Positions 5,786-40,478 of a stretch of DNA of 54,476 nucleotides are shown in pieces (the first letter of the stretch is position 1; each line of letters starts with the position of its first letter). A model generated the notes under the pieces. The model saw nothing but the letters and a program-made list of their open reading frames with translations, was not told the origin of the DNA and did no database searches. A program made the position numbers and the translations under genes. Source of the stretch: Actinotalea fermentans ATCC 43279 = JCM 9966 = DSM 3133 (GTDB lineage Bacteria; Actinomycetota; Actinomycetes; Actinomycetales; Cellulomonadaceae); assembly GCA_000767215.1 (NCBI GenBank), contig AXCX01000005.1:1-54476 (forward strand), given 5' to 3'.

Positions 5786-5810
5786 CCCTGGTCGCCCCGC
5801 GGGGCGACGA

Positions 5811-5863
5811 CGGACGACGACGGCGCCGGCCACCCTCCAGGTGACCGGCGCCGTCGTCGTCCG
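5811..5863 (+). terminator. Long hairpin terminator after the YtxH-like gene
   Basis: Arms 5811-5833 and 5841-5863 pair over 23 bp with a single mismatch and a 7-base loop. It ends 23 bases before the GTG of the next small gene. Confidence 0.75.
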
Positions 5864-5886
5864 CGGCGAGGCGGCAGACTCTCCCC

Positions 5887-6072
5887 GTGGAGATCGTGAC
5901 CTTGGCCCTCGGTGGGCTCTGCACCATCGGCGGCGCGGGCGCGCTGGTCGCCGCGTTCCGGCACGGCCAGGCGGGCCGGGCCGCCGACGAGCGTCGCTGG
6001 TTCCGGATGGCCGTCGTCGGGCTGGCACTCGGTTCGACCGCGTTCCTGGTCACCGCGCTGCTGGCGGGCTGA
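5887..6072 (+). CDS. Small two-helix membrane protein (hypothetical)
   Basis: 61-residue ORF with two hydrophobic helices (about 4-24 and 41-60) joined by a basic, polar loop ([16 protein letters not shown]), which predicts a hairpin with the loop in the cytosol. Function is unknown. CAGACT at 5875-5880 stands exactly six bases before the GTG, the geometry of leaderless actinobacterial genes, which supports it as a real gene despite its size. It converges on aceB with only 13 bases between the stops. Confidence 0.6.
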
Positions 6073-6085
6073 CCGCCCGGCCCCG

Positions 6086-7810
6086 TCACGACCGATCCGG
6101 CACCGGTCCCTCCGGTCGCTGGACGAGGTGCTGGGCGTAGGCGGACAGCGTGAGGAAGCTCGGGTACTCATCGGCGAGCGCCACCTGCCGGAAGAGCGCC
6201 GCGGCGTCGTCGACCCGGTCCCCCGCGGACCTGGGCAGGCTCGCGACGACCTCCGACAGCACCTCGGCGACCCACGCGCGGCTGATCCGGCGCCCCTCGG
6301 CCGTCTCGGTCCCGTGATGGACCCACTGCCAGATCTGCGAGCGCGAGATCTCGGCCGTCGCGGCGTCCTCCATGAGGTTGTCCAGGGCAGCCGCCCCGGT
6401 ACCGCGCAGCCACGAGTCGAGGTAGCGGACCGCGACGGCGACGTTCCCGCGCACACCCGCCTCGGTGACGCGGCCGTTGGCCGACCGGAAGTCGAGCAGC
6501 TGCGCGGCCGTGACGCGGACGTCGTCACGCAGCCGGTCGAGCTGGTTCGGACGGTCGCCGAGCGTGGCGTCGAAGACCTCGCGCGCGACGGGCACGAGGT
6601 CGGGGTGGGCGACCCACGTGCCGTCGAAGCCCTGCCCGGCCTCCCGCTCCTTGTCGGCCCGCACCTGGTCGAGCGCGCGCGCGGTGACCTCGGGGTCGCG
6701 GCGGTTCGGGATGAACGCCGACATCCCGCCGATGGCGTGCGCTCCCCTGCGGTGGCAGGTCGCCACGAGGAGGTCGGTGTAGGCGCGCATGAAGGGCACG
6801 TCCATCGTCACCTGCGACCGGTCGGGCAGGACGTACCGCGGCCCCCGCTCCCGGAAGGTCTTGATGATGCTGAAGATGTAGTCCCACCGCCCGGCGTTGA
6901 GGCCTGCGCAGTGGTCGCGGAGCTCGTAGAGGATCTCCTCCATCTCGAAGGCGGCCGTGATCGTCTCGATGAGCACGGTGGCGCGGATCGTCCCGTGCGG
7001 CAGCCCGAGGTAGGTCTCCGTGACGGTGAACACGTCGTCCCACAGCCGCCCCTCGAGGCGGTTCTCGATCTTCGGCAGGTAGAAGTACGGGCCGCGGCCC
7101 GCCGCCACGAGCGCCGTCGCGTTGTGGAACGCGTACAGGCCGAAGTCGACGAGGCTGGCCGACGCCGCGGCCCGCTGGCCGGCGCGGTCCACGAACCGCA
7201 GGTGCCGCTCCGCCAGGTGCCAGCCACGCGGTCGCATGACGATCGTCGGGGTCGTCGGCCCGACCCGGTACTCCTTGCCCTCGGGCGAGACGAAGTCGAC
7301 CTGCCCGCGGATCGCGTCGTAGAGGCTGTGCTGCCCCCCGACGACGTTCTCCCACGTCGGGGAGGTCGCGTCCTCCTGGTCGGCGAGCCACACGCGCGCG
7401 CCGGAGTTGAGCGCGTTGACCGTCATCTTGCGGTCCGTCGGCCCGGTGATCTCGACGCGCCGGTCCACCAGGCCCGGCCCTGCCCCGGCGACCCGCCACG
7501 TCGGGTCGGCCCGGATGCCGGCCGTCTCGGGCAGGAAGTCCGGGTCCAGGCCGTTGGCGTAGCGCTCCTGCCGCCGCTGGCGCTCGAGGAGCAGGTCGTG
7601 CCGCCGACCCGCGAAGCGGACGTGCAGCTCGGTCAGGAAGGCGAGCGCCTCCGGGGTCAGGATGGTCGCCGAACCGGCGACCGGCGGCCCGACCACCTCG
7701 ACGCGCGCGGTTGCGTGCGCGAACGGGGCGACGCCGTCGGGCGTGGCGGCGGGTGCGGGTGCCGGCGCCGTGGGTCGGCTGGTCGTGGTGGCCTGCGGGA
7801 GTGCGTTCAT
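6086..7810 (-). CDS. aceB: Malate synthase A
   Basis: Condenses glyoxylate with acetyl-CoA to give malate, the second step of the glyoxylate shunt. Family blocks are clear: [43 protein letters not shown], the glycine/aspartate block [12 protein letters not shown] and the C-terminal [11 protein letters not shown]. At 574 residues it is longer than usual because of an Ala/Pro-rich N-terminal extension of about 30 residues. The ATG overlaps the aceA stop (ATGA) and has GGAGGA upstream, so aceA-aceB form one coupled operon; most maps place aceB beside aceA but often divergent. Confidence 0.95.
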
Positions 7811-9222
7811 CGGTGTCCTCCGAACCGGGCGGTCTCGGTGGAGCCGGCCATCGCGGTCGTCACGCTGTCCGGGTTGAGCACTGTCGCGACGCGGTCGAAG
7901 TAGCCCGTGCCGACCTCGCGCTGGTGCCTCGTCGCGGTGTAGCCGTCTGCCTCGGCGGCGAACTCGGCCTCCTGCAGGGCGACGTAGGCGGTCATCCCGT
8001 GCTCGGCGTAGCCCCGCGCGAGCTGGAACATCGCGTGGTTGAGGGCGTGGAAGCCGGCGAGGGTGATGAACTGGAACGCGTACCCGTACGAGGCGAGCTC
8101 GCGCTGGAAGCGCGCGATCGCGGCGTCGTCGAGGTGGGCCTTCCAGTTGAACGACGGCGAGCAGTTGTAGGCGAGGAGCTTGCCGGGGAACCGCTCGTGG
8201 ATCCGCTCGGCGAACTCCCGCGCCAGGGCGAGGTCGGGCTCGCCGGTCTCCACCCACAGCAGGTCCGCGTACTCCGCGTACGCCAGCGACCGCGCGACCA
8301 CGGCATCCAGGCCCGGACGCACCCGGACGTAGCCCTCGACGGTCCGCTCGCCGGTGAGGAACTCGGCGTCGCGCGGGTCGACGTCGGAGGTCAGCAGGTC
8401 CGCCGCGAGCGCGTCCGTCCGCGCCACGACGAGCGTGGGCACCCCCGCGACGTCGGCCGCGAGGCGCGCCGCGCTGAGGGTGCGCACGTGCTGGGACGTC
8501 GGGACGAGGACCTTGCCGCCCAGGTGGCCGCACTTCTTCTCGGCGGCGAGCTGGTCCTCCCAGTGCACACCCGCGGCGCCCGCGGCGATCATCGCCCGCA
8601 TGAGCTCGTAGGCGTTCAGCGGGCCACCGAACCCGGCCTCGGCGTCGGCCACGATCGGCGCGAGCCACTCGCCGAGGCGGCGGCCGGCGCCCGGCCCGCC
8701 CGTGAGGGCCGCCTCGACCGCGTCCACCTGGTCCGCCCGCAGGAGGGCGTTGTTGATCCGACGGACGACGGCGGGCACCGAGTTCGCCGGGTACAGGCTC
8801 TGGTCCGGGTAGGTGTGCCCCGACAGGTTCGCGTCGGCGGCGACCTGCCACCCCGACAGGTAGATCGCCTTGAGGCCGGCGCGGACCTGCTGGACCGCCT
8901 GGTTGCCGGTCAGCGCGCCGAGTGCGGGCACGAACTCCTCGGTGTGCAGCAGCTCCCAGAGGCGCTCGGCGCCGCGGCGGGCGAGCGTGTGCTCCTCGGT
9001 CACGGTGCCGCGCAGGTCGATCACGTCCTGCGCGGAGTAGTCGCGCCGGACGCCGGACCACCGCGGGTCGCTCGCCCACTCCTGCTCGAGCTCGGCGGCG
9101 GTCTGCACCTGGTCGCCCGGCCGGGGCCGGCGACGCGAGGCCTCGTCACCGGCCAGGGCGAGCCGGCGCGGCCCGTGCTGCGGGCGGCTGATGCCGACAG
9201 TGGCTGCGGTGTTCGCGTCCAT
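7807..9222 (-). CDS. aceA: Isocitrate lyase
   Basis: Splits isocitrate into succinate and glyoxylate, the first step of the glyoxylate shunt, letting cells grow on acetate or fatty acids. The signature KKCGHLGGK is at 229-237 with catalytic Cys231; metal/substrate blocks [22 protein letters not shown] and NCSPSFNW are present. Length 471. The start at 9222 has a strong GGAGGGAG site; the longer frame to 9441 runs into the divergent regulator and lacks support. It is divergent from a RamB-like regulator, which is its known type of controller. Confidence 0.95.
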
Positions 9223-17042: not shown

Positions 17043-17115
<73 letters not shown>

Positions 17116-17120
17116 CAAGC

Positions 17121-17209: not shown

Positions 17210-19426
17210 TCACCAGGGCCGGGCGACCCGCTCCTCGAGCCAGTCGTCCTGCAGGTAATCGTCCTTCTGGAGTGCGAGCCGGAGAATGCCGCGCAGGCCG
17301 GTGACGGCGTCGCCGAACGTGAAGCGACTCGCCGCGGAGTCGTGGCCCTCGCGCAGTTCGACGGGGACCTCGACGACGGGCATCCCCTGCTGCTCGGCGG
17401 CCAGCACGAGTTCGGTGGTCCACATGAGGCCCGGCTCGCGCGAGAACGCCGCGAACATCCGGCACCACTCGGCGTCCACCCAGATCGTGCCCTGGCTGTC
17501 CCCGACGGACGAGTGCAGGAGGGCCTCCCTCATCGAGCGGAAGACCCTCGACTGGAGGGTGCGCCTGGTCGACCGGTGGACGTCGGACTCGACGTGCGCC
17601 TTCGAGCCGATGGCCAGGAGCGTGTCGGCGGGCAGCTCTCGGAAGCGGGAGAGGTCACCAAGACCGAAGGGCAGGTCGTCGGCGGTGAGGAGAAGGCGGT
17701 CCCCCAGCGTCGCCAGCACCCCGGTCCGGAGCGCGACGCCGAGGCCCGGCTCGCTGTGCAGGACGCGCAGCGTGCACGGGTGCGACCACCGCTCCTCGAT
17801 CTCGGCGAGGACGCCGCTCGTGGTGTCGGTCGAGCCGTTCTCCACCACGACGATCTCGTCACCCGCACCGAGCTCACCGGCCAGCGTCGCAAGTGTCGCA
17901 CCGACCGTGGCAGCGCCGTTCCGGGTCGGCACCACGGCCGACAGCGACGTCGGCACGGCTCTGGGCGTGAGCCGCGCGAGGTGCCGGGCGATCTTCTGCC
18001 GCTCGCTCGCCCGCACGTGCGACGGCATCGAGCTGACGACCCACGCGAACCCACCGAGGCCGACGGACAGCAGGAGGCCGAAGGCCGCAGAGAGCTCGGA
18101 GAAGTAGTAGATGAGCGGCATGACGAACACCGCCGGCGCGAAGCCCAGCACGACGGTCGGCGTCACCATCGCCAGCACCGCCCGGACGCCCCTGCGGTGC
18201 GGGCCCCGCCGGTGCAGCGCGAGCGTGATGCCGATGCCCGCCACGACCAGCATCGCCCCGTAGTGCTTGATCGTGTAGAGCGCCTTGTCCAGGTAGAGCC
18301 GTGCGGCGGCGCCAGGGCTCTCGCGGACCTCACCGAAGTAGAGGTCCTTCATAATCTCGTTGAACTCCGTGCTCGCGATGAGCACGTCCGGGTCGACCGC
18401 TCGGGCCTGCGCCCAGCCGTACTCGTCGTTCCATCGGATGTCGAATGGCGACGGCTGACCCGTGATCGGCTCGGGATAAGACAGGCCGAGGTAGAACGAG
18501 TGCCACAGCGCGTGCGCGTCCGGCAGCTCGCTCACCGCGAGTCCCGTCGCGTCGGCCCGCTCGGTGTCGATCAGCCGCATCACGCCCGCGGGCAGCATCA
18601 GGGCGATGACGACGGCGACGGCAGCCGCCACGACGGCGCGGAGCCAGCGGAGCCGTCCCCGGCTCCACATCCACCACAGCACGCCCACCCCGGCGGCAGT
18701 GCCCACGCCCGACATCGCGCGCGACAGGTTCCCGACGCCGCCGAGCGCACCTGTGAGCAGGGTGACGGCCACCAGGGCGCGCGCGCTCAGGCGCACCGTG
18801 GACAGCACGAGGAGCATCGTCAAGGAGAGAAAGACGAGCGATGCCGCGATGCCGTACTGGGCGTAGACGCGCGTAGGCGCCGCCGCGTTCGACAAGCCGT
18901 ACTCGGTGCCGAGAAGCACCGTGCCGTGGTTCACCAGCCACAGGAGCGCCGGCATCGCCAAGAGCACGTACCCCGCGCGGGCGCGCCGGAACAGCCGGGC
19001 GACGCCGAGTGGCAGCACCAGGAGAGGGAGCGCCGCCAGACCCGCCATGGCTCCCTTGAGGCCGGCGTACGGCGACGGCGAGCCCGTCACGTGCGAGAGG
19101 AGGCTGGCGATGATGTACGAGCCGGGGTCGTCGTCCCAGGCGGCCGCCGTGTAGGGGCCGTCCGTGGGCGCTTGCGTGTACCAGGAGCCGGACCCGGTGG
19201 GCTTGATCAGCAGGACGCCGGTCTCACGGTAGGCCTGGTACGTTGCATTGAGCTCGAGGTCGCGCGCGCCATGCCACGGGAGGCTCGGCATGAGCAGGAC
19301 CGTCACGAACGTCATGACGGCGAGCACCAACCCGGTCAGGAGCAGGAGGATCGTCGTCGACCGTGGCCACGGCGGCTGGGCCGGCATCGTGCTCGTGTCG
19401 GCTTCGTCCAGGGGATTCTGAAGCAC
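17210..19426 (-). CDS. Fusion protein: polytopic membrane (GT-C-like) region plus C-terminal GT2 glycosyltransferase
   Basis: 738 residues in two parts. Residues 1-470 hold about ten predicted membrane helices, a first outer loop with acidic residues (GARDLELN at 53-60, WDDDPGSY at 97-104) and a roughly 100-residue outer loop (286-387); this resembles GT-C glycosyltransferases using polyprenyl-phosphate sugars, though no GT-C family is firmly recognised. Residues 492-715 are a GT2 domain of the DPM1/GtrB type: VVPTRNGAATV, VVVENGSTDTT, GLGVALRTG, TADDLPFG (581-588) in place of the DxD, then VGDSQGTIWVD and TELVLAAEQQGMPVVEVPVE. The GT2 end should be cytosolic. A flippase gene lies 64 bases upstream on the same strand. 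Together they suggest synthesis and outer-face transfer of a lipid-linked sugar. G+C looks a little lower than in neighbours. Confidence 0.75.
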   Translation of the reverse strand: MLQNPLDEADTSTMPAQPPWPRSTTILLLLTGLVLAVMTFVTVLLMPSLPWHGARDLELNATYQAYRETGVLLIKPTGSGSWYTQAPTDGPYTAAAWDDDPGSYIIASLLSHVTGSPSPYAGLKGAMAGLAALPLLVLPLGVARLFRRARAGYVLLAMPALLWLVNHGTVLLGTEYGLSNAAAPTRVYAQYGIAASLVFLSLTMLLVLSTVRLSARALVAVTLLTGALGGVGNLSRAMSGVGTAAGVGVLWWMWSRGRLRWLRAVVAAAVAVVIALMLPAGVMRLIDTERADATGLAVSELPDAHALWHSFYLGLSYPEPITGQPSPFDIRWNDEYGWAQARAVDPDVLIASTEFNEIMKDLYFGEVRESPGAAARLYLDKALYTIKHYGAMLVVAGIGITLALHRRGPHRRGVRAVLAMVTPTVVLGFAPAVFVMPLIYYFSELSAAFGLLLSVGLGGFAWVVSSMPSHVRASERQKIARHLARLTPRAVPTSLSAVVPTRNGAATVGATLATLAGELGAGDEIVVVENGSTDTTSGVLAEIEERWSHPCTLRVLHSEPGLGVALRTGVLATLGDRLLLTADDLPFGLGDLSRFRELPADTLLAIGSKAHVESDVHRSTRRTLQSRVFRSMREALLHSSVGDSQGTIWVDAEWCRMFAAFSREPGLMWTTELVLAAEQQGMPVVEVPVELREGHDSAASRFTFGDAVTGLRGILRLALQKDDYLQDDWLEERVARPW

Positions 19427-19490
19427 GGTTCCTCTCGTCCTGCATCACGTCGCGACGCGGCCGCGCCCGCCTCGGGACCCGTACCGGGCG

Positions 19491-20738
19491 TCAGGATAGT
19501 GCTCCGTCGCCAGGAGCCACGGCACGTCGCCCTTCATCGTCGACGCAGGGACGGGTCGGGGTGGGCGTGCGGCGCAGTTCGACGACGCTGACCCAGAGGG
19601 TCAGGGCGACACTCACCGACACGCCCGAGAGCACGATCGCGGCGATCGAACCGTGCACGACCGCCACCACGCCGACAACACCGGCCGCGCCCACCCAGAG
19701 GCGCCAGTCCGCACCAGAGCCGGGGTCCGACAGCCGGAGGAACAGCAGCGCCTGCAGGGTGGCGAAGAGGCTGCCCTGCAGCGCGAACACCCAGATCAGC
19801 GGCACGATCGCCTCGTACCCGGGCCCTGCGGCGACCTGGACCACCCACGGCGCCAGGACCGCGCAGGCCGCCGTGGCACCCGCACCGACGGCCACAGTGG
19901 CCAGCACGTTCGCCGTGCGCAGCCGAGGCGTCGATGCCGCAGCCATCCGAGGGAAGAGGACATAGCTGATGAAGCCGGGCAGGAAGAACGCGACCTTCGC
20001 GACGAGCGACCCGACGGCGTAGGCCCCAGAGTCGGCCGGCTCAAGGAAGGTCCGCGCCAGGACGACGTCCATGTTCACGAGGAGGTAGAGGCCGAGCAGG
20101 GACGCACTGTTGCGCCAGAGCTCGCGGAGCACGTTCGGGCCGGGCAGGCCAAGGGGCACCCGCTCCCGTGCGACCGCGAGCGCCACGGCGCTCCCTGCCG
20201 CACTGCCCACCAGCATTCCCAGGCCGGCGGACGTCGCGGTCGGCTCGACGGCCACGGCCACCACGGTGCCGGTTGCCCGGAGGATCCCGAGAGCCGCGTA
20301 GGTCCCGCCGAAGCGAGTGTGCAGGCGGCGCCCCTGGAGGACGCCGATCGCGGTGAAGCCGAGCACGCTCACGGCCACGCTCGCGACGACCGCGAGCATC
20401 GCGGCCGACGGGACACCGAGGACCGGCGCCGCCGCCATGGATGGCGCAGCGAGGATCAGCAACGCACCCGCCGCCCAGGCTCCCGCCCGCATGACCACGT
20501 CGGTGCGCCCCAACGCGACCCCCGCGGCGACCCGACGCGCGGCGAGGGTCTGGCAGCCGATCGCGAAAGTCGACACGATGATCGACACGCCCAGCAGCGC
20601 CCCGAGCGCACCGAACTCGGCCGGCGCCAGGATACGAGCGCTCGCGATCGACAGCCCGTAGGCCGCCGCGTTCGCCAGTGTCGTCCCGCCGGCGACGACC
20701 AGCAGGTCCCGCAGGTTCGAGACCCTTCGCTCAGGCAC
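19491..20738 (-). CDS. Oligosaccharide/lipopolysaccharide flippase (MOP/Wzx type)
   Basis: 415-residue integral membrane protein with about 12 predicted helices, starting with the family-typical NLRDLLVVAGGTTLANAAAY and LSIASARILAPAEFGALGAL. MOP-type flippases move undecaprenyl-linked glycans or related lipids across the membrane. It is followed by the membrane-GT/GT2 fusion gene, its likely partner. TAGCGT (minus strand, 20745-20750) stands six bases before the GTG, so the operon mRNA is probably leaderless. The C-terminal 25 residues are polar and probably cytosolic. Confidence 0.82.
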   Translation of the reverse strand: MPERRVSNLRDLLVVAGGTTLANAAAYGLSIASARILAPAEFGALGALLGVSIIVSTFAIGCQTLAARRVAAGVALGRTDVVMRAGAWAAGALLILAAPSMAAAPVLGVPSAAMLAVVASVAVSVLGFTAIGVLQGRRLHTRFGGTYAALGILRATGTVVAVAVEPTATSAGLGMLVGSAAGSAVALAVARERVPLGLPGPNVLRELWRNSASLLGLYLLVNMDVVLARTFLEPADSGAYAVGSLVAKVAFFLPGFISYVLFPRMAAASTPRLRTANVLATVAVGAGATAACAVLAPWVVQVAAGPGYEAIVPLIWVFALQGSLFATLQALLFLRLSDPGSGADWRLWVGAAGVVGVVAVVHGSIAAIVLSGVSVSVALTLWVSVVELRRTPTPTRPCVDDEGRRAVAPGDGALS

Positions 20739-20852: not shown

Positions 20853-21164
20853 TCAGGCGCCGACGGGGACCGCCTGTCGCCACCCGTCACCCGCGGGCAC
20901 GGCGCCCTCGGGCAGGTCCGCCGTCGCGATGACGACGTTGGTCCCCGTGCCGGAGACCTTCTCCCATCTGCTGCCGTAACACATGTCGACGGCCAGCTCA
21001 GGAGCCTGGGGGGCCAACGTGGCCTCCTCGATCAGCTCCGTCGTGCCGCTTGCATCACCGGTGGTCCAGAAAACCGTCTGGTGAGGGTGGTAGCTGGCCC
21101 ACTCCCACTTCCACTGCCGCTGGACCTGCTCCCAGTGGCAGATGGTCTCCGTCGTCTCGGACAT
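20853..21164 (-). CDS. Orphan hypothetical protein, tryptophan-rich
   Basis: 103 residues, not recognised. It starts MSETTETICHWEQVQRQW and has five tryptophans in the first 40 residues (WEQVQRQWKWEW, VFWTTGD), two cysteines (positions 9 and about 70) and a glycine/valine-rich second half (GTGTNVVIATADLPEGAVP). No signal peptide or membrane helix is seen. The ATG at 21164 has a strong AGGAGGTGG site, and a 16-bp-stem terminator closes the unit, so it is a well-formed single-gene transcript. It sits between the glycan pair and dinB; function cannot be inferred. Confidence 0.7.
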   Translation of the reverse strand: MSETTETICHWEQVQRQWKWEWASYHPHQTVFWTTGDASGTTELIEEATLAPQAPELAVDMCYGSRWEKVSGTGTNVVIATADLPEGAVPAGDGWRQAVPVGA

Positions 21165-35804: not shown

Positions 35805-37301
35805 TCACGGGGCGAGCAGGACGGTCCCGTCGCTGGAGGACACCAGCACCCCGGCGCCGCTGCCGACGAGGCCCACGCCGTCCGCGCCGACGCCGCCGAG
35901 CGGTACCTGCCACCGCACGACACCCGTGCCGAGGTCGCGGGCCACGAGCACCATCCCCGCACCTGCGCGCTCCGTCACGACGACCACGTCGCCGTCGGTG
36001 AGCGCGGTCGGGGACCAGCCGATGCCGTCGACCGCGTCCTGCCACACCACGTCCCCGCTGTGGACGTCCAGCGCGACGACCTTGCCCGCACCGGCCGTGA
36101 CCAGGATCCCGTCGACCTGGACGAGCGGCTCCATGCCCGCCATCCGGCCACCGGACCAGAGGTCGGCGCCCGACGCCGGGTCGACGGCGACGACCTCGCC
36201 GCGCCCGCTCGCCGCATCGGTGCTCGAGCTCGGGCGGCGCAGCAGCAGCACCCCCGGTTCTGAGCCGTCCGTCACGGCGGGGAGCCATGGAACGCCGTCG
36301 AGCTCGACGACGCCGCCGCCGTCGGCCGGGACGACGCGCGAGACACCGGTCCCGAAGGCCCTGGCGTCGAAGTCCCACTCGACGCGGGCACCACCGGGCA
36401 GCGTCGCGGCCATGGTGTAGAGCACCCCGTCGCGAGCCGCCTCGGGCTGCGGCTCGCCCGTCGCGAGGTCCAGGGGGACGGAGCCGACGGTGCCCACGCG
36501 GAGGACGTCCGTCTCGACGTGGAACACCCAGCCGGTCCGGTCGATGCGCTCGAGCGGCTCGGGCAGACGCTGCGTCCAGACCTCGCGGGCGACCTCGTCC
36601 GGGCCCCCGGGCAGGGCCCACCGCGACACCACGACGGCGCCCTCCTGGTCGAGCGAGGCGACCACGACGTCCGGCCCCGCCAGCTCGACGCCCAGGACGT
36701 CGGCGGGCGTGGGGACCGTCGCGACCTCCGCGCCGGTCGTCGCGTCCAGCAGGGTGACGCTCGTCGGCTCGCCCACGACGACGCGGTTCCCCTCCACGGT
36801 GGCGAAGAAGCGGTAGCAGGCGACGAGCTCGACCGGGGCAGCGTCGAGCGCCGGGCGGCCCGGCGCGCTCTGGGCGCTCAGCGTCCGGCACGTCTCGTCG
36901 TCGGCGGTCGGTCGCGTCCAGAGCTGCTCGCCCGTGCGCAGGTCGACGCCCGTCAGGCGCCAGTCGCGGGGCGTGAGGAGCACGACGACCTCGCGGCCGA
37001 CCGCGTCCACCTGGGCACCGTCGACGCTCCACGCCTCCTCGAGCGGCCCGTCGAGCGGCGGCAGCAGACCCTGGACACCCGCGAGGGCTTCGCGCCGGTC
37101 TCGCTCCCGGCGCTGGTCGTCCGCCGTCATGACGGCCGAGGTCACGACCACGGCGGCGACCACCGCGAGTCCCGCGGCGACGAACCAGAGCCGGCGGCGA
37201 CGCGCTCGTCGGGGCTCGCCCGTGCCGCTCGCGGGCCGGTCGCCCGGGCCCTCGTCGAGCTCGACCTCCACGGCGTCGCCCGCCGCCCCGCCCCCACTCA
37301 C
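35805..37301 (-). CDS. Membrane-anchored PQQ-like beta-propeller protein, paralogue 1
   Basis: 498 residues: acidic cytosolic N terminus with VEVELDE (11-17), one membrane helix (38-58), a charged connector (DDQRRERDRREALAG) and an outer beta-propeller made of repeated GVDLRTGEQLWTRP-like and VVALDVHSGDVVWQDAV-like blades, as in PQQ-like/BamB-type propellers. No catalytic residues are seen. TAGGGT (minus strand, 37308-37313) lies six bases before the GTG, so the mRNA is leaderless. First of three tandem paralogues counted from the left; each has its own promoter. Function unknown; a binding or assembly role is plausible. Confidence 0.8.
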   Translation of the reverse strand: MSGGGAAGDAVEVELDEGPGDRPASGTGEPRRARRRRLWFVAAGLAVVAAVVVTSAVMTADDQRRERDRREALAGVQGLLPPLDGPLEEAWSVDGAQVDAVGREVVVLLTPRDWRLTGVDLRTGEQLWTRPTADDETCRTLSAQSAPGRPALDAAPVELVACYRFFATVEGNRVVVGEPTSVTLLDATTGAEVATVPTPADVLGVELAGPDVVVASLDQEGAVVVSRWALPGGPDEVAREVWTQRLPEPLERIDRTGWVFHVETDVLRVGTVGSVPLDLATGEPQPEAARDGVLYTMAATLPGGARVEWDFDARAFGTGVSRVVPADGGGVVELDGVPWLPAVTDGSEPGVLLLRRPSSSTDAASGRGEVVAVDPASGADLWSGGRMAGMEPLVQVDGILVTAGAGKVVALDVHSGDVVWQDAVDGIGWSPTALTDGDVVVVTERAGAGMVLVARDLGTGVVRWQVPLGGVGADGVGLVGSGAGVLVSSSDGTVLLAP

Positions 37302-37335
37302 GGGTCGACCCTAGCGAGCGGGCCCCGCCCGGGGG

Positions 37336-38802
37336 TCAGCGCAGCGCGACCAGCCCGGAATCGGTGAGGACGAGGACCGTCCGTCCGTCGACCTCGTCGA
37401 CGGAGACGACCTCGCCGGGCAGCGCCACGTCCCACGCCTGCTCCCCCGTGGTCAACCGGCGCGCCACCAGGCTGACGCCCCCGTCGCCGTCGTCGGACGG
37501 CAGCAGGACGACGCGACCGTCCGTCACGGCGTCCCACGTCCGCGACCCGCGCGCGACCTCGTGCTGCCACAGGCGCAGACCCGTGCCGACGTCGAGCGCG
37601 ACCGCCGACGACGGCGAGACGGCGATCACGACGCCGCCCGCCTGGACCGAGGCCTCGAGCCACGGCACGTTGGCCAGGTCCCAGCGCACCCGGCCCGAAC
37701 CGGCGTCCACGCCGAGGAGGTGCTTGTCCGAGGTCCGCCGCACGACGACGACGTCCGACGCCGACCCGTCGCGCACGGGTGCCAGCCACGGCAGCCCCGG
37801 CACCTCGAACCGCACCCCGGCCTCGCGGTCGACGATGACGACGTCCTTCGGTCGCCCGAAGTGGTCGCGGCCCCAGCGGGCTTCCCGACCGCCGGGCAGG
37901 TCGAGGGTCTCGGGCGCGGCTCCCGCCGCGGCGGAGGCCTCCCGCTGCCCCGTGACCGCGTCGAACGTCAGCCGCCGCTCCCGGGAGCGGAAGGTCACGG
38001 TGGCGTCGCCGGTCTCGTGCGACCAGTCGGCCGCGGAGCTCAGCTCGGCCGGTCCGTCCGGGCCGGCGCTGAACGCAAAGGCGTCGAGGCCGGAGAGCGG
38101 CTCCCAGCCGCGGATCGTGACCGCCGTCCCGGCCGTCCCCGTCAGCACGACCAGGCCGTCCACGACGTCGGCCGCGGCCCAGCCGTCGCCCGTCAGCGCC
38201 CGGAGCTCCGTACCCGAGGACGCGTCGAGGACGCTCACCCCGCCCGGGTCGGACGCCGTCGCGACCCGCAGGCACACCGCGACGGCGACGACCGGCAGGT
38301 CCTCCGGTGTCGTGCTCAGCGGGTGGCACTCCTCGCCGGTGCGCTGCCACCGGACGGCGCCCGTCTCCAGGTCGACCGCGGTGAGCGATCCGGCGTCGGC
38401 GCCGCTGCCCGGCCCGCCGTCGCCGCCGGCCAGCAGGACCGTGGTGGAGGTGCGCGCCACGGGGCGTCCGGCGTCGCTGCGCCACGCGACGGCCATGGGC
38501 TGCGCGATCGGGTCGAGGTAGCCCGGCAGGCCGGCGAGCGCAGCCAGCCGGCTCTCGTCGCGCCGCTCCTCCGCCTGGTTGAGCCCCCAGCTCGCCAGCG
38601 CGACCACCGCGAGCGCGCCGACGGCGGACCAGAGCCGACCCCGGGAGGCGCGGACGACCTCGGGAGCCGCGGTGCCGCCGTCGTCGGCGGGCGGTCCGTC
38701 GGCCGAGCGGCGCGCGCGACGACCACCCGGGAGCAGTCGGCCATCGAGGTCCTCGACCAGCTCCACGTCGACGCGCTGCGGGTCCTCCGCACCGGACCGC
38801 AT
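37336..38802 (-). CDS. Membrane-anchored PQQ-like beta-propeller protein, paralogue 2
   Basis: 488 residues with the same layout as its neighbours: cytosolic VDVELVED (11-18), one membrane helix (57-74), connector AEERRDESRLAALAGL, then a propeller with blades such as LTAVDLETGAVRWQRTG and LLGVDAGSGRVRWDL. The ATG at 38802 was chosen because TACATT lies five bases upstream in leaderless geometry and because it aligns the N terminus with the paralogues; an earlier GTG/ATG near 38859 would run across that promoter. Role unknown. Confidence 0.8.
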   Translation of the reverse strand: MRSGAEDPQRVDVELVEDLDGRLLPGGRRARRSADGPPADDGGTAAPEVVRASRGRLWSAVGALAVVALASWGLNQAEERRDESRLAALAGLPGYLDPIAQPMAVAWRSDAGRPVARTSTTVLLAGGDGGPGSGADAGSLTAVDLETGAVRWQRTGEECHPLSTTPEDLPVVAVAVCLRVATASDPGGVSVLDASSGTELRALTGDGWAAADVVDGLVVLTGTAGTAVTIRGWEPLSGLDAFAFSAGPDGPAELSSAADWSHETGDATVTFRSRERRLTFDAVTGQREASAAAGAAPETLDLPGGREARWGRDHFGRPKDVVIVDREAGVRFEVPGLPWLAPVRDGSASDVVVVRRTSDKHLLGVDAGSGRVRWDLANVPWLEASVQAGGVVIAVSPSSAVALDVGTGLRLWQHEVARGSRTWDAVTDGRVVLLPSDDGDGGVSLVARRLTTGEQAWDVALPGEVVSVDEVDGRTVLVLTDSGLVALR

Positions 38803-38873
38803 GAGCCAATGTAGATCGGCGACGGCGTCAGCGCGACGGTCGGTCTCAGTCCGCGGCACGCCCGCGTGACCGG

Positions 38874-40478
38874 CTACCGGTAGTAGACGAGCTCCGTGTC
38901 GTTCCCCACGAGCACCCCGTCACCGACCACGTTGAGCAGCTGGATGTTGGACAGGGTCGGCACGCGCCAGGTCTCGGCCCCGCTACGGATCTCCCGCGCG
39001 ACCAGGCTGGTGACGGCGCCGTCCGTCGTCGGCAGGACGACGCGCGACCCGTCCGTGACCGGGGAGACGGCGCCCGACAGCGTCGCGCGGTGCTGCCAGA
39101 GCTCCTCGCCGGTCCGCAGGTCGACGCCGGCCGCGTACCCGGAGCCGGCCACCGCGACACCGTCGACCTGGACCAGCGCGGTGGACCACCGCATCGGCAC
39201 GGTCCAGAGCTCGTCACCGGTCACCACGTCCAGCGCGCTGAGGCTGCCGCCCGTCCCGTTGTCCCCGGTGCTGCCGACGAGGATGCGATCGGGCAGCGAG
39301 CCGTCGGTGTACCAGGGTGACCACAACCCGCCCGGCGCCTCGAACCGCTCCGTGCCGTCGGGGCCCGTCACCGTGACCGAAGGGTCACCGACGACGTAGC
39401 TCACGCCGTCCTCCTGCAGGATGTCGCCGTAGCTCATGTCGACGCGGGTCCCGTCCGGCAGGACCTGCCATCCACCGCTGGCCGTCGGCAGCTCGACCTC
39501 GGCCGTCGTCGGCTCGCCGGTGTCCATGTCGATCGCCTCGACCAGCCCGCCACCGGGCGCCAGGAGGAGCACCGTGCCGTCGTACAGCGACGGCCACGCC
39601 CCGGCGTAGTAGCCGTCGTCGTCGACCGCCATGACCTCCGTGGTCGTCGACCAGACGGGCGGTCCTCCCGCGAGCGGTCGCCGCGTGAGCTGGATCGCGC
39701 CCTCGGGCGTGACCGTGGCCGCGACGAGATCCTCCTCGACGGGGTCGAACGTCACGAGCGCCCCGGGGAGGTCGACGCTGGCGAGCTCCGCGCCGCTGCG
39801 CACGTCGAGCACGGTGAGCGTCGACTGCTCCCCGGCGGCGGGCAGCTCCCCGCCGAACCCAGGTCCCGACGAGCAGATGAGCATGCTCGCGTCCGGAACC
39901 CCGCCGCCGGCCGCCGCGAAGGCGAAGGCGACCATGGCCTCCTCCGACGTCAGGTCCGACCACTGCGGGTTCCACTGGCTGCACCAGCCGTCGCCCGGCT
40001 CGGTGCGCTCCCACGCCACCTCGCCGGTGGCGGTGTCGACGGCACGCCACACGTTCACCCCACCGACCTGGTCCCAGGTCTGCAAGACCATGACCTCGGA
40101 CGTCGTGGCCATCGGCCAGCCGCCGCCCGGCAGGCGCCAGACCTCCTCCAGCGGCGCGCTCAGGTCCACGAGCGGCATGCCTCGCTCGGCCAGGGCGTCC
40201 CAGCGGGCCTCGGCGCGCCGTTCGTCGAGCGCGGTCAGCACTCCCCCGGTGACCGCGAGCGCCAGCACCACCCCGGCGCCCACGGCGAGGAGCACCCGCC
40301 GACGACGGCGGTGCGCCCGCGCCTCGGGCGTGGGGTCGCCCCCGGAGCCGCCCGGGCTACCCGGGTCGCCCGACGGGTCGTCGCCCGGGGCGACCGCGTG
40401 GAGCGGCGGCCGGAGCGCGTCGGGGCTGTCGACCTCGACCAGGTCGACCGGGACGGTGTCGCCCTCGCCGCCGCGCAC
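38874..40478 (-). CDS. Membrane-anchored PQQ-like beta-propeller protein, paralogue 3
   Basis: 534 residues: N-terminal VPVDLVEVD (9-17), a Gly/Ser/Pro/Asp-rich cytosolic linker, arginine cluster, membrane helix (62-82), connector LDERRAEARWDALAER and an outer propeller (YAAGVDLRTGEELWQHRA, LSALDVVTGDELWTVP). Two cysteines (about 166 and 202; DGWCSQW, MLICSSG) could form a disulfide. TAGTGT (40485-40490, minus strand) is six bases before the GTG. It is the longest and most upstream of the three; a 12-bp tandem repeat lies just behind its promoter. Confidence 0.8.
   Translation of the reverse strand: MRGGEGDTVPVDLVEVDSPDALRPPLHAVAPGDDPSGDPGSPGGSGGDPTPEARAHRRRRRVLLAVGAGVVLALAVTGGVLTALDERRAEARWDALAERGMPLVDLSAPLEEVWRLPGGGWPMATTSEVMVLQTWDQVGGVNVWRAVDTATGEVAWERTEPGDGWCSQWNPQWSDLTSEEAMVAFAFAAAGGGVPDASMLICSSGPGFGGELPAAGEQSTLTVLDVRSGAELASVDLPGALVTFDPVEEDLVAATVTPEGAIQLTRRPLAGGPPVWSTTTEVMAVDDDGYYAGAWPSLYDGTVLLLAPGGGLVEAIDMDTGEPTTAEVELPTASGGWQVLPDGTRVDMSYGDILQEDGVSYVVGDPSVTVTGPDGTERFEAPGGLWSPWYTDGSLPDRILVGSTGDNGTGGSLSALDVVTGDELWTVPMRWSTALVQVDGVAVAGSGYAAGVDLRTGEELWQHRATLSGAVSPVTDGSRVVLPTTDGAVTSLVAREIRSGAETWRVPTLSNIQLLNVVGDGVLVGNDTELVYYR

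Follow-up and report, generated by a model that had tools for sequence, protein, structure and literature searches.

A family 2 glycosyltransferase domain fused to a polytopic membrane protein in Actinotalea fermentans: a candidate Gtr/Gac-like glycosylation system packed into two genes

The Gtr glycosylation system, as outlined in PMC11127046 and PMC7389260, consists of the flippase GtrA, the synthase GtrB and a serotype-specific outer transferase. Precedents for a synthase acting together with a MATE or Wzx flippase and a GT-C transferase are presented in PMC11127046 and in the GacI/GacJ/GacK/GacL scheme cited in PMC10821137. We analyzed a stretch of 54,476 nucleotides from Actinotalea fermentans ATCC 43279 (contig AXCX01000005.1; the whole stretch is called the window below), in which one gene of the minus strand, at 17210..19426, encodes a polytopic membrane half followed by a C-terminal domain of glycosyltransferase family 2 (GT2). 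In our judgement this single polypeptide probably performs two steps of a Gtr/Gac-type extracytoplasmic glycosylation, with a Wzx-like flippase encoded directly upstream, and a glycosylation system usually made of three or four genes may here be packed into two.

In the proposed pathway, the cytosolic GT2 domain would charge polyprenyl phosphate with a sugar taken from a nucleotide sugar, and the Wzx-like protein would flip the resulting polyprenyl-phosphate sugar. The membrane half, through conserved acidic residues of its outer loops, would then use the flipped sugar on the outer face, where a cell-surface glycan would be decorated. The proposal is built on what the comparison of sequences establishes: the fusion exists and is conserved, its topology can be read from hydropathy, acids are conserved in the outer loop, a Wzx-like gene is adjacent and the parts are split in a relative, genome G441. 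From these we infer that polyprenyl phosphate is the acceptor, that the product is flipped, that the membrane half acts as a transferase and that channelling may bring an advantage. The original prediction of a self-contained machine was too strong because the lipid-linked sugar must still be flipped, and a Wzx-like gene stands beside four of the five intact fusions. If the proposal holds, one molecule would both make the lipid-linked sugar and use it on the outer face, the retention of scarce polyprenyl-phosphate sugars for one pathway would become testable, and a polytopic protein family of the Actinomycetota beyond the libraries searched would be indicated. The intact fusion, the split form and a fusion with a degenerate GT2 are available as natural controls.

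The locus shares with the Gtr system a GtrB-related GT2, a flippase-like gene and a polytopic protein with acidic outer-loop residues, and in the split relative G441 a GT2 and a GtrA are found alongside. It differs from it in that the GT2 and the outer protein form one open reading frame (ORF) instead of separate synthase and transferase polypeptides, in that the flippase-like gene is Wzx-like and not GtrA, in the motif TADDLPFG, in a GT2 without its own C-terminal helix pair and in a membrane half whose sequence could not be related to any of the GT-C families compared. The pentofuranose/GT136 system described in PMC11127046 similarly combines a lipid-phosphate-sugar synthase, a MATE-type flippase and a polytopic transferase, although its lipid donor is made from phosphoribosyl pyrophosphate (PRPP) by a different synthase; the words fused and fusion do not occur in the main text of that paper. 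A polyprenyl-phosphate-sugar GT2, a Wzx-type flippase and an outer GT-C decorating a cell-wall polysaccharide are likewise features of the Streptococcus pyogenes GacI/J/K/L system, which, as presented in PMC10821137, is composed of four separate proteins including the small activator GacJ. In Mycobacterium tuberculosis Ppm1 (Rv2051c), as reported in PMC3460810, a membrane enzyme and a polyprenyl-phosphate-sugar synthase are naturally fused, the two parts being encoded by adjacent ORFs in relatives; the N-terminal partner is there a lipoprotein N-acyltransferase and not a glycosyltransferase. Among the titles and the first lines of the abstracts consulted, no description of a GT2/membrane-protein fusion of the present kind was recognised.

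As originally predicted, the gene is a single uninterrupted frame of 738 codons, with a GTG start. The frame contains no internal stop and measures 744 amino acids from stop to stop, and a GAGAGG sequence (19431-19436) lies 4 nucleotides ahead of the GTG. The length of this ORF is not evidence, because DNA of 74% GC content carries an even longer antisense ORF of 749 codons at 17342-19591(+); the gene is judged to be real because homologues, 47-68% identical, match it along its full length.

Compared loci and genomes are designated below by L and G numbers. When homologues were sought across the actinobacteria, as the original prediction had proposed, the same fusion was found in five other genomes, which makes six with the window: Microbacterium kyungheense (L001), Oerskovia enterophila (L002), Cryobacterium flavum (L003), G026 (L007/L015) and G470 (L011/L016). 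The searched sets of genomes overlap, all include the window's genome and are not to be summed. Matches were obtained in 5 of 221 genomes of the family at E 1e-40 (three fusions, one membrane half alone, one GT2 alone) and in 6 of 396 of the order (three fusions, one membrane half alone, two GT2 alone). Of 396 genomes of the phylum, two matched at E 1e-20, the window's own and one with a GT2 alone. The GT2 used as the only query matched 4 of 394 genomes of the class at E 1e-18 (two fusions, two GT2 alone).

The membrane half (residues ~20-466, 18029..19369, minus strand) is the predicted outer-face transferase. Its topology was read from family-averaged hydropathy and charge alongside the helix string of a low-confidence AlphaFold model. 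The predicted ten or so membrane helices and 100-residue outer loop were both recovered in this way, "ten" being a reading, as helices 4 and 5 are poorly separated in the hydropathy profile. The inner loops are basic, the N- and C-termini are placed inside by charge, and the GT2 domain is thereby located in the cytosol. The first outer loop (residues ~46-123, 19058..19291, minus strand) contains 3 K/R and 7 D/E and bears R55, E58, T69-G70 and the motif WDDDPG; the large outer loop (residues ~284-384, 18275..18577, minus strand) contains 8 K/R and 17 D/E and bears H305, W308, Y312 and G314, all invariant. About ten helices with an outer domain behind helix 1 agree with the 7-13 membrane helices and the arrangement expected of a GT-C protein.

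Conservation was examined in an alignment of 13 sequences, composed of the window, the near relatives and five distant relatives (L043 left out). R55, L59, T69, G70, L73, D100, G102, Y104, Y191, H305, W308, Y312, G314, P371, K381 and P437 are invariant, and the outer-loop residues remain so down to 17-26% identity. In the near relatives, the WDDDPG motif (residues 97-102, 19121..19138, minus strand) is retained and varies only slightly (WNDDTG in L016, WDEDPG in L021). Its D100 is invariant and its D99 is kept in at least 90% of the sequences, and the two are candidate catalytic acids. The conserved acids of the first outer loop, on which the assignment of a GT-C-type transferase had been made to depend, were thus present across homologues, in keeping with what is expected of GT-C enzymes.

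In Pfam, NCBIfam, PHROGs and the PDB sequences, the membrane half and its relatives gave only chance-level scores; against the PDB sequences, single sequences and profiles produced just one match, to an unrelated subunit at E 1.7. The membrane-half profile detected stand-alone distant relatives in 4 other genomes (198 of the phylum searched) and one more, G1318, from 149 genomes of another class. These relatives, all without the first helix, are L029:1444-2616, L030:1045-2340, L031:1399-2580, L032:1162-2328, L034:1156-2322 and L043:1501-2652, and the five that were aligned retain the motifs DD.G.Y and WH..Y.G. L033 (E 1.4e-5) was dropped as a relative, being a FecCD-type permease by inspection. 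In L038 (7412-9915), a stand-alone membrane-half relative is present in two tandem copies behind one GtrB-type GT2. The membrane half is proposed as a candidate new glycosyltransferase family in Actinomycetota, nameless in the libraries searched.

The GT2 domain (residues ~495-725, 17252..17944, minus strand) belongs to its family by a PF00535 match on residues 496-648 (E 1.2e-10, 42 bits versus a cut-off of 23.3). In profile-profile comparisons it matched six GtrB-type neighbours with 98.3% probability over 139 columns and two DPM-like GT2s with 97.2% probability; the PHROG "GtrB-like" match was weak (E 3.1e-5). In the tree, all six fused GT2 domains fall into a single clade (support 97/99) within a TADDLPFG subfamily that is set apart (100/99) from the GtrB/DPM-type GT2s included. 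The motif itself (residues 581-588, 17663..17686, minus strand) occupies the place of DxDxQ in the profile alignment, where A582 corresponds to the first Asp, D584 to the second Asp and P586 to the Gln of GtrB-type enzymes, in agreement with the claim that TADDLPFG stands where DxD would be expected. The assignment to the polyprenyl-phosphate-sugar synthases held in part: the homology to GtrB and DPM and the gene context of relatives fit it, and the full DxDxQ is missing. The region GSKAH...RS...R...VGDSQGT may resemble ALG5-type dolichyl-phosphate glucosyltransferases.

The Wzx-like gene (19491..20738, minus strand) is separated from the fusion by a gap of 64 nucleotides, and its product is a likely cognate flippase. 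The gene itself has no Pfam match at E 0.001. It is 47% and 41% identical to genes beside the fusion in L015 and L002, respectively, and the L015 copy falls slightly short of the PF01943 cut-off, with E 1.5e-5. The group to which these genes belong gave a 99.0% profile match to a second Wzx-like group, of which one member, L001:8316-9497, exceeds the cut-offs of PF01943 and PF13440 and lies directly downstream of the L001 fusion. Among the five intact fusions, the first group accompanies three (window, L015, L002) and the second accompanies that of L001.

The fusion is not obligatory, since its parts are split in G441 and its GT2 is degenerate in C. flavum. In G441 (L017), the membrane half stands alone; a GT2 (PF00535) begins 42 bp behind it, and GtrA (PF04138) comes next. 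In the tree this membrane half groups (98/100) with those of the fused L001, L002, L003 and L016. The grouping of the six fused membrane halves as one clade was rejected (approximately unbiased test, p-AU 0.0015; a grouping by trait, tested with the tree seen beforehand). Because of this rejection, the simplest explanation for the split form in G441 is a secondary loss of the fused GT2. The placement of the other near split form, L021 (G022), has little support (38/0). The copy in Microbacterium paulum (L004:6046-6576), which comprises no more than roughly the first 180 residues, lies between sugar-nucleotide-type genes and a Wzm-like gene by inspection and is probably decayed.

In C. flavum (L003:5962-8166), the fused frame is open and the GT2 motifs are replaced: TADDLPFG by VGNALPIE, ENGS by DTSS, GSKAH by NAGAN and VGDSQGT by GAGRHRT. 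This GT2 shares 34-40% identity with the other five, compared with 59-74% among those five, and the C. flavum membrane half shares 51-64% with its five counterparts. The domain is, from these substitutions, a candidate pseudo-enzyme. A separate GT2 (PF00535) and a DUF2304 protein are encoded 436 bp upstream of the fusion; GacJ is DUF2304-like as well.

The distribution of separate GT2 genes was analyzed with a home-made GT2 profile over the 14 loci with a membrane half, the truncated L004 being left out of the counts, and with a limit of 1.7 kb that was set after seeing the data; several of the loci are related. A same-strand separate GT2 within this limit was present in six of the seven loci with a membrane half alone: the gap is 42 bp in L017, 214 bp in L035 (longest GT2 ORF), 944 bp in L037 and 1637 bp in L102, the genes overlap by one base in L038, and in L036 (G741) the gap is 446 bp by the L030 coordinates (407 bp from the rough gene end). 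The single locus with a degenerate fused GT2 also has one, at the 436 bp given above, and none of the five intact fusions does. The profile revealed no separate GT2 in the 54 kb of the window, the 19.5 kb of L015 or the 14 kb of L002; in L001 the nearest are at 2.4 kb on the opposite and 2.7 kb on the same strand, and in L016 the nearest is at 1.9 kb on the opposite strand. Given 7 partners in 13 loci, the chance of finding none in the five intact fusions is 6/1287 (about 0.005), a value to be read with the post hoc limit and the relatedness of the loci. At the distant loci, the neighbouring GT2 carries DxDLQDPP and two C-terminal helices in four of five cases by inspection, the fifth being L102, whose GT2 was left out.

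Stand-alone GT2s of the TADDLPFG subfamily were followed in their own neighbourhoods. Genes around the loci were called by a custom script, and absence from these gene lists counts as weak because the script misses genes in loci of lower GC content. A PF03706 (LPG_synthase_TM) gene lies beside the GT2 in L018 and L019 and its homologue in L020; a PF09586 (YfhO) protein comes next in L019, and L020 has a homologue of it. Behind the GT2 of L039 lie a 120-residue protein, whose best NCBIfam matches, ArnF (E 4.4e-6) and ArnE, score well short of the cut-off and whose PF00892 score is just under cut-off, and then a 530-residue membrane protein without family. An LPG_synthase-TM or ArnE/F-like neighbour was found in four of the five stand-alone loci, and in L023/L040 a relative of the YfhO-like protein adjoins the GT2 on the opposite strand. 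By context only, these neighbourhoods fit a GT2 making a lipid-linked sugar for an outer transferase. The three L039 genes (5796-8595), all on one strand, may be a version of the system in three genes, with a different outer protein.

Several observations weigh against the proposed pathway. The DxDxQ sequence has been put forward as a hallmark of polyisoprenyl-phosphate GT2s (in PMC10821137), and A-D-D-L-P keeps its second Asp (D584) only. The fused GT2 is not always needed, because C. flavum has lost its motifs and kept the membrane half; nor is the C. flavum GT2 and DUF2304 pair a specific replacement, because relatives of the pair also occur in the L017 cluster and in the L001 cluster, where the fused GT2 is intact. 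In L021, with a membrane half alone, the nearest GT2s are at 2.2 kb on the same strand and 3.0 kb on the opposite strand. No Wzx-like gene was noticed by inspection in the 19.5 kb of L016, and no flippase-like gene was visible among the few genes annotated in L023/L040. The partly annotated gene list of the window showed no other polysaccharide genes, and the profile found no other GT2. Furthermore, helix 1 is missing from the distant relatives, whose sequences start inside the first outer loop. This is unexpected in a GT-C protein and implies that they have an outside N-terminus, that the GT-C comparison is incomplete or that another architecture is involved.

The fold of the membrane half weighs in the same direction. 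The structure prediction and fold search proposed with the original prediction gave no support, as AlphaFold models of the membrane half and of the full-length protein, from shallow alignments (5 and 4 rows), had mean pLDDT (predicted local distance difference test) values of 47.1 and 46.3 and are not taken as fold evidence, and Foldseek of the membrane-half model against the PDB returned nothing at E 0.001. ArnT, ranked 3 in that list at E 0.51, counts as no evidence. No significant profile similarity to GT39, GT87, YfhO-like or DUF2142 proteins was obtained. With the near family, hhalign gave probabilities of 0.9% for GT39, 0.6% for GT87 and 0.2% for YfhO-like proteins, four non-GT-C controls giving 0.1-0.3% and a FecCD-type permease 18%. 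A kinship with GT39, in which helix 1, loop and helix 2 align in order, was not counted, its 0.9% being below the value of the permease. With distant relatives added, GT87 reached 7%; with the distant relatives alone, DUF2142 reached 33%, GT87 9% and one single DUF2142 protein 62%. Without the distant relatives, DUF2142 and GT87 do not rise above the controls; their higher values are suggestive and were not counted. Of the predicted GT-C-type transferase half, the conserved outer-loop acids therefore stood and the GT-C fold was not established. Because the fold is not shown, the membrane half is not filed in GT-C, the C-terminal domain is filed in GT2 and the system is called Gtr/Gac-like.

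More tentatively than the pathway, and as something possible rather than probable, the membrane half may found an unclassified outer-face glycosyltransferase family with an exchangeable donor-synthase module. Fusion and Wzx-like flippase would form a two-gene cassette in which the GT2 can be exchanged for a separate GT2 and GtrA, as in G441, or can decay to a dead domain served by another GT2, as in C. flavum.

Two other functions of the membrane half were weighed. It could be a Wzy/WaaL-like ligase or polymerase acting on a whole lipid-linked oligosaccharide, with the GT2 extending the lipid-linked glycan in the cytosol. Such a role would be consistent, by inspection, with the nucleotide-sugar and glycosyltransferase genes that surround L001, L004, L015, L016, L017 and L021 and with the Wzm/Wzt-like genes in L001, L004, L016 and L017; the incomplete DxDxQ of the GT2 also favours it, and the 100-residue outer loop with its invariant H, W and Y would suit a ligase too. 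However, L001, L004 and L016 apparently have separate Wzy/ligase-like genes (inspection), the membrane half of G441 is paired with a GT2 and GtrA, and the DxDLQDPP GT2 with two C-terminal helices adjoins four of the five distant loci, so that we regard this function as rather unlikely. Slightly less likely again is a membrane half that serves as a flippase, anchor or activator of the GT2, like GtrA or DUF2304 proteins, with the outer transferase encoded elsewhere. The lack of detectable GT-C family homology, the first helix missing in distant relatives and the presence of a GT2 in or near the membrane half everywhere except in the truncated L004 and, at 1.7 kb, in L021 speak for it, whereas the invariant D, H, W and Y of the two large outer loops are more suggestive of an active site, and a flippase role would be redundant next to the GtrA encoded separately in G441 and the Wzx-like protein encoded separately in the window. 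That a sequencing or assembly error joined two genes, a possibility raised with the original prediction and by a source assembly fragmented into 841 contigs, is hardly credible, because five other genomes have the same junction, in frame.

Domain-architecture databases contain GT2 domains fused to other GT-C domains. In our survey, the home-made profile matched none of 43 frames longer than 250 amino acids around 25 PF13231 matches in 14 genomes, a weak test with frames taken from both strands and flanks of 1.5 kb.

The surroundings of the fused gene were also inspected. A tRNA-Asn gene (17043-17116(+)) lies directly downstream. The GC content of the fused gene is 0.708 versus 0.740, about 5% of 2.2-kb windows being equally low, and a search at E 1e-40 found the fusion in none of the 18 other genomes of the genus; the tRNA gene, the lower GC content and this absence are hints of a horizontal arrival. 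No empty site of a genomic island can be demonstrated, because the 12 congeners read show no synteny at the dinB flank, and a plasmid search at E 1e-10 gave no match. Between the Wzx-like gene and dinB, an ORF of 103 amino acids (20853-21164(-)) has no Pfam match and no relative in the compared loci. Farther away, at 35805-40478(-), the window contains three tandem PQQ_2/BamB-like beta-propeller genes, which are 30-38% identical to each other.

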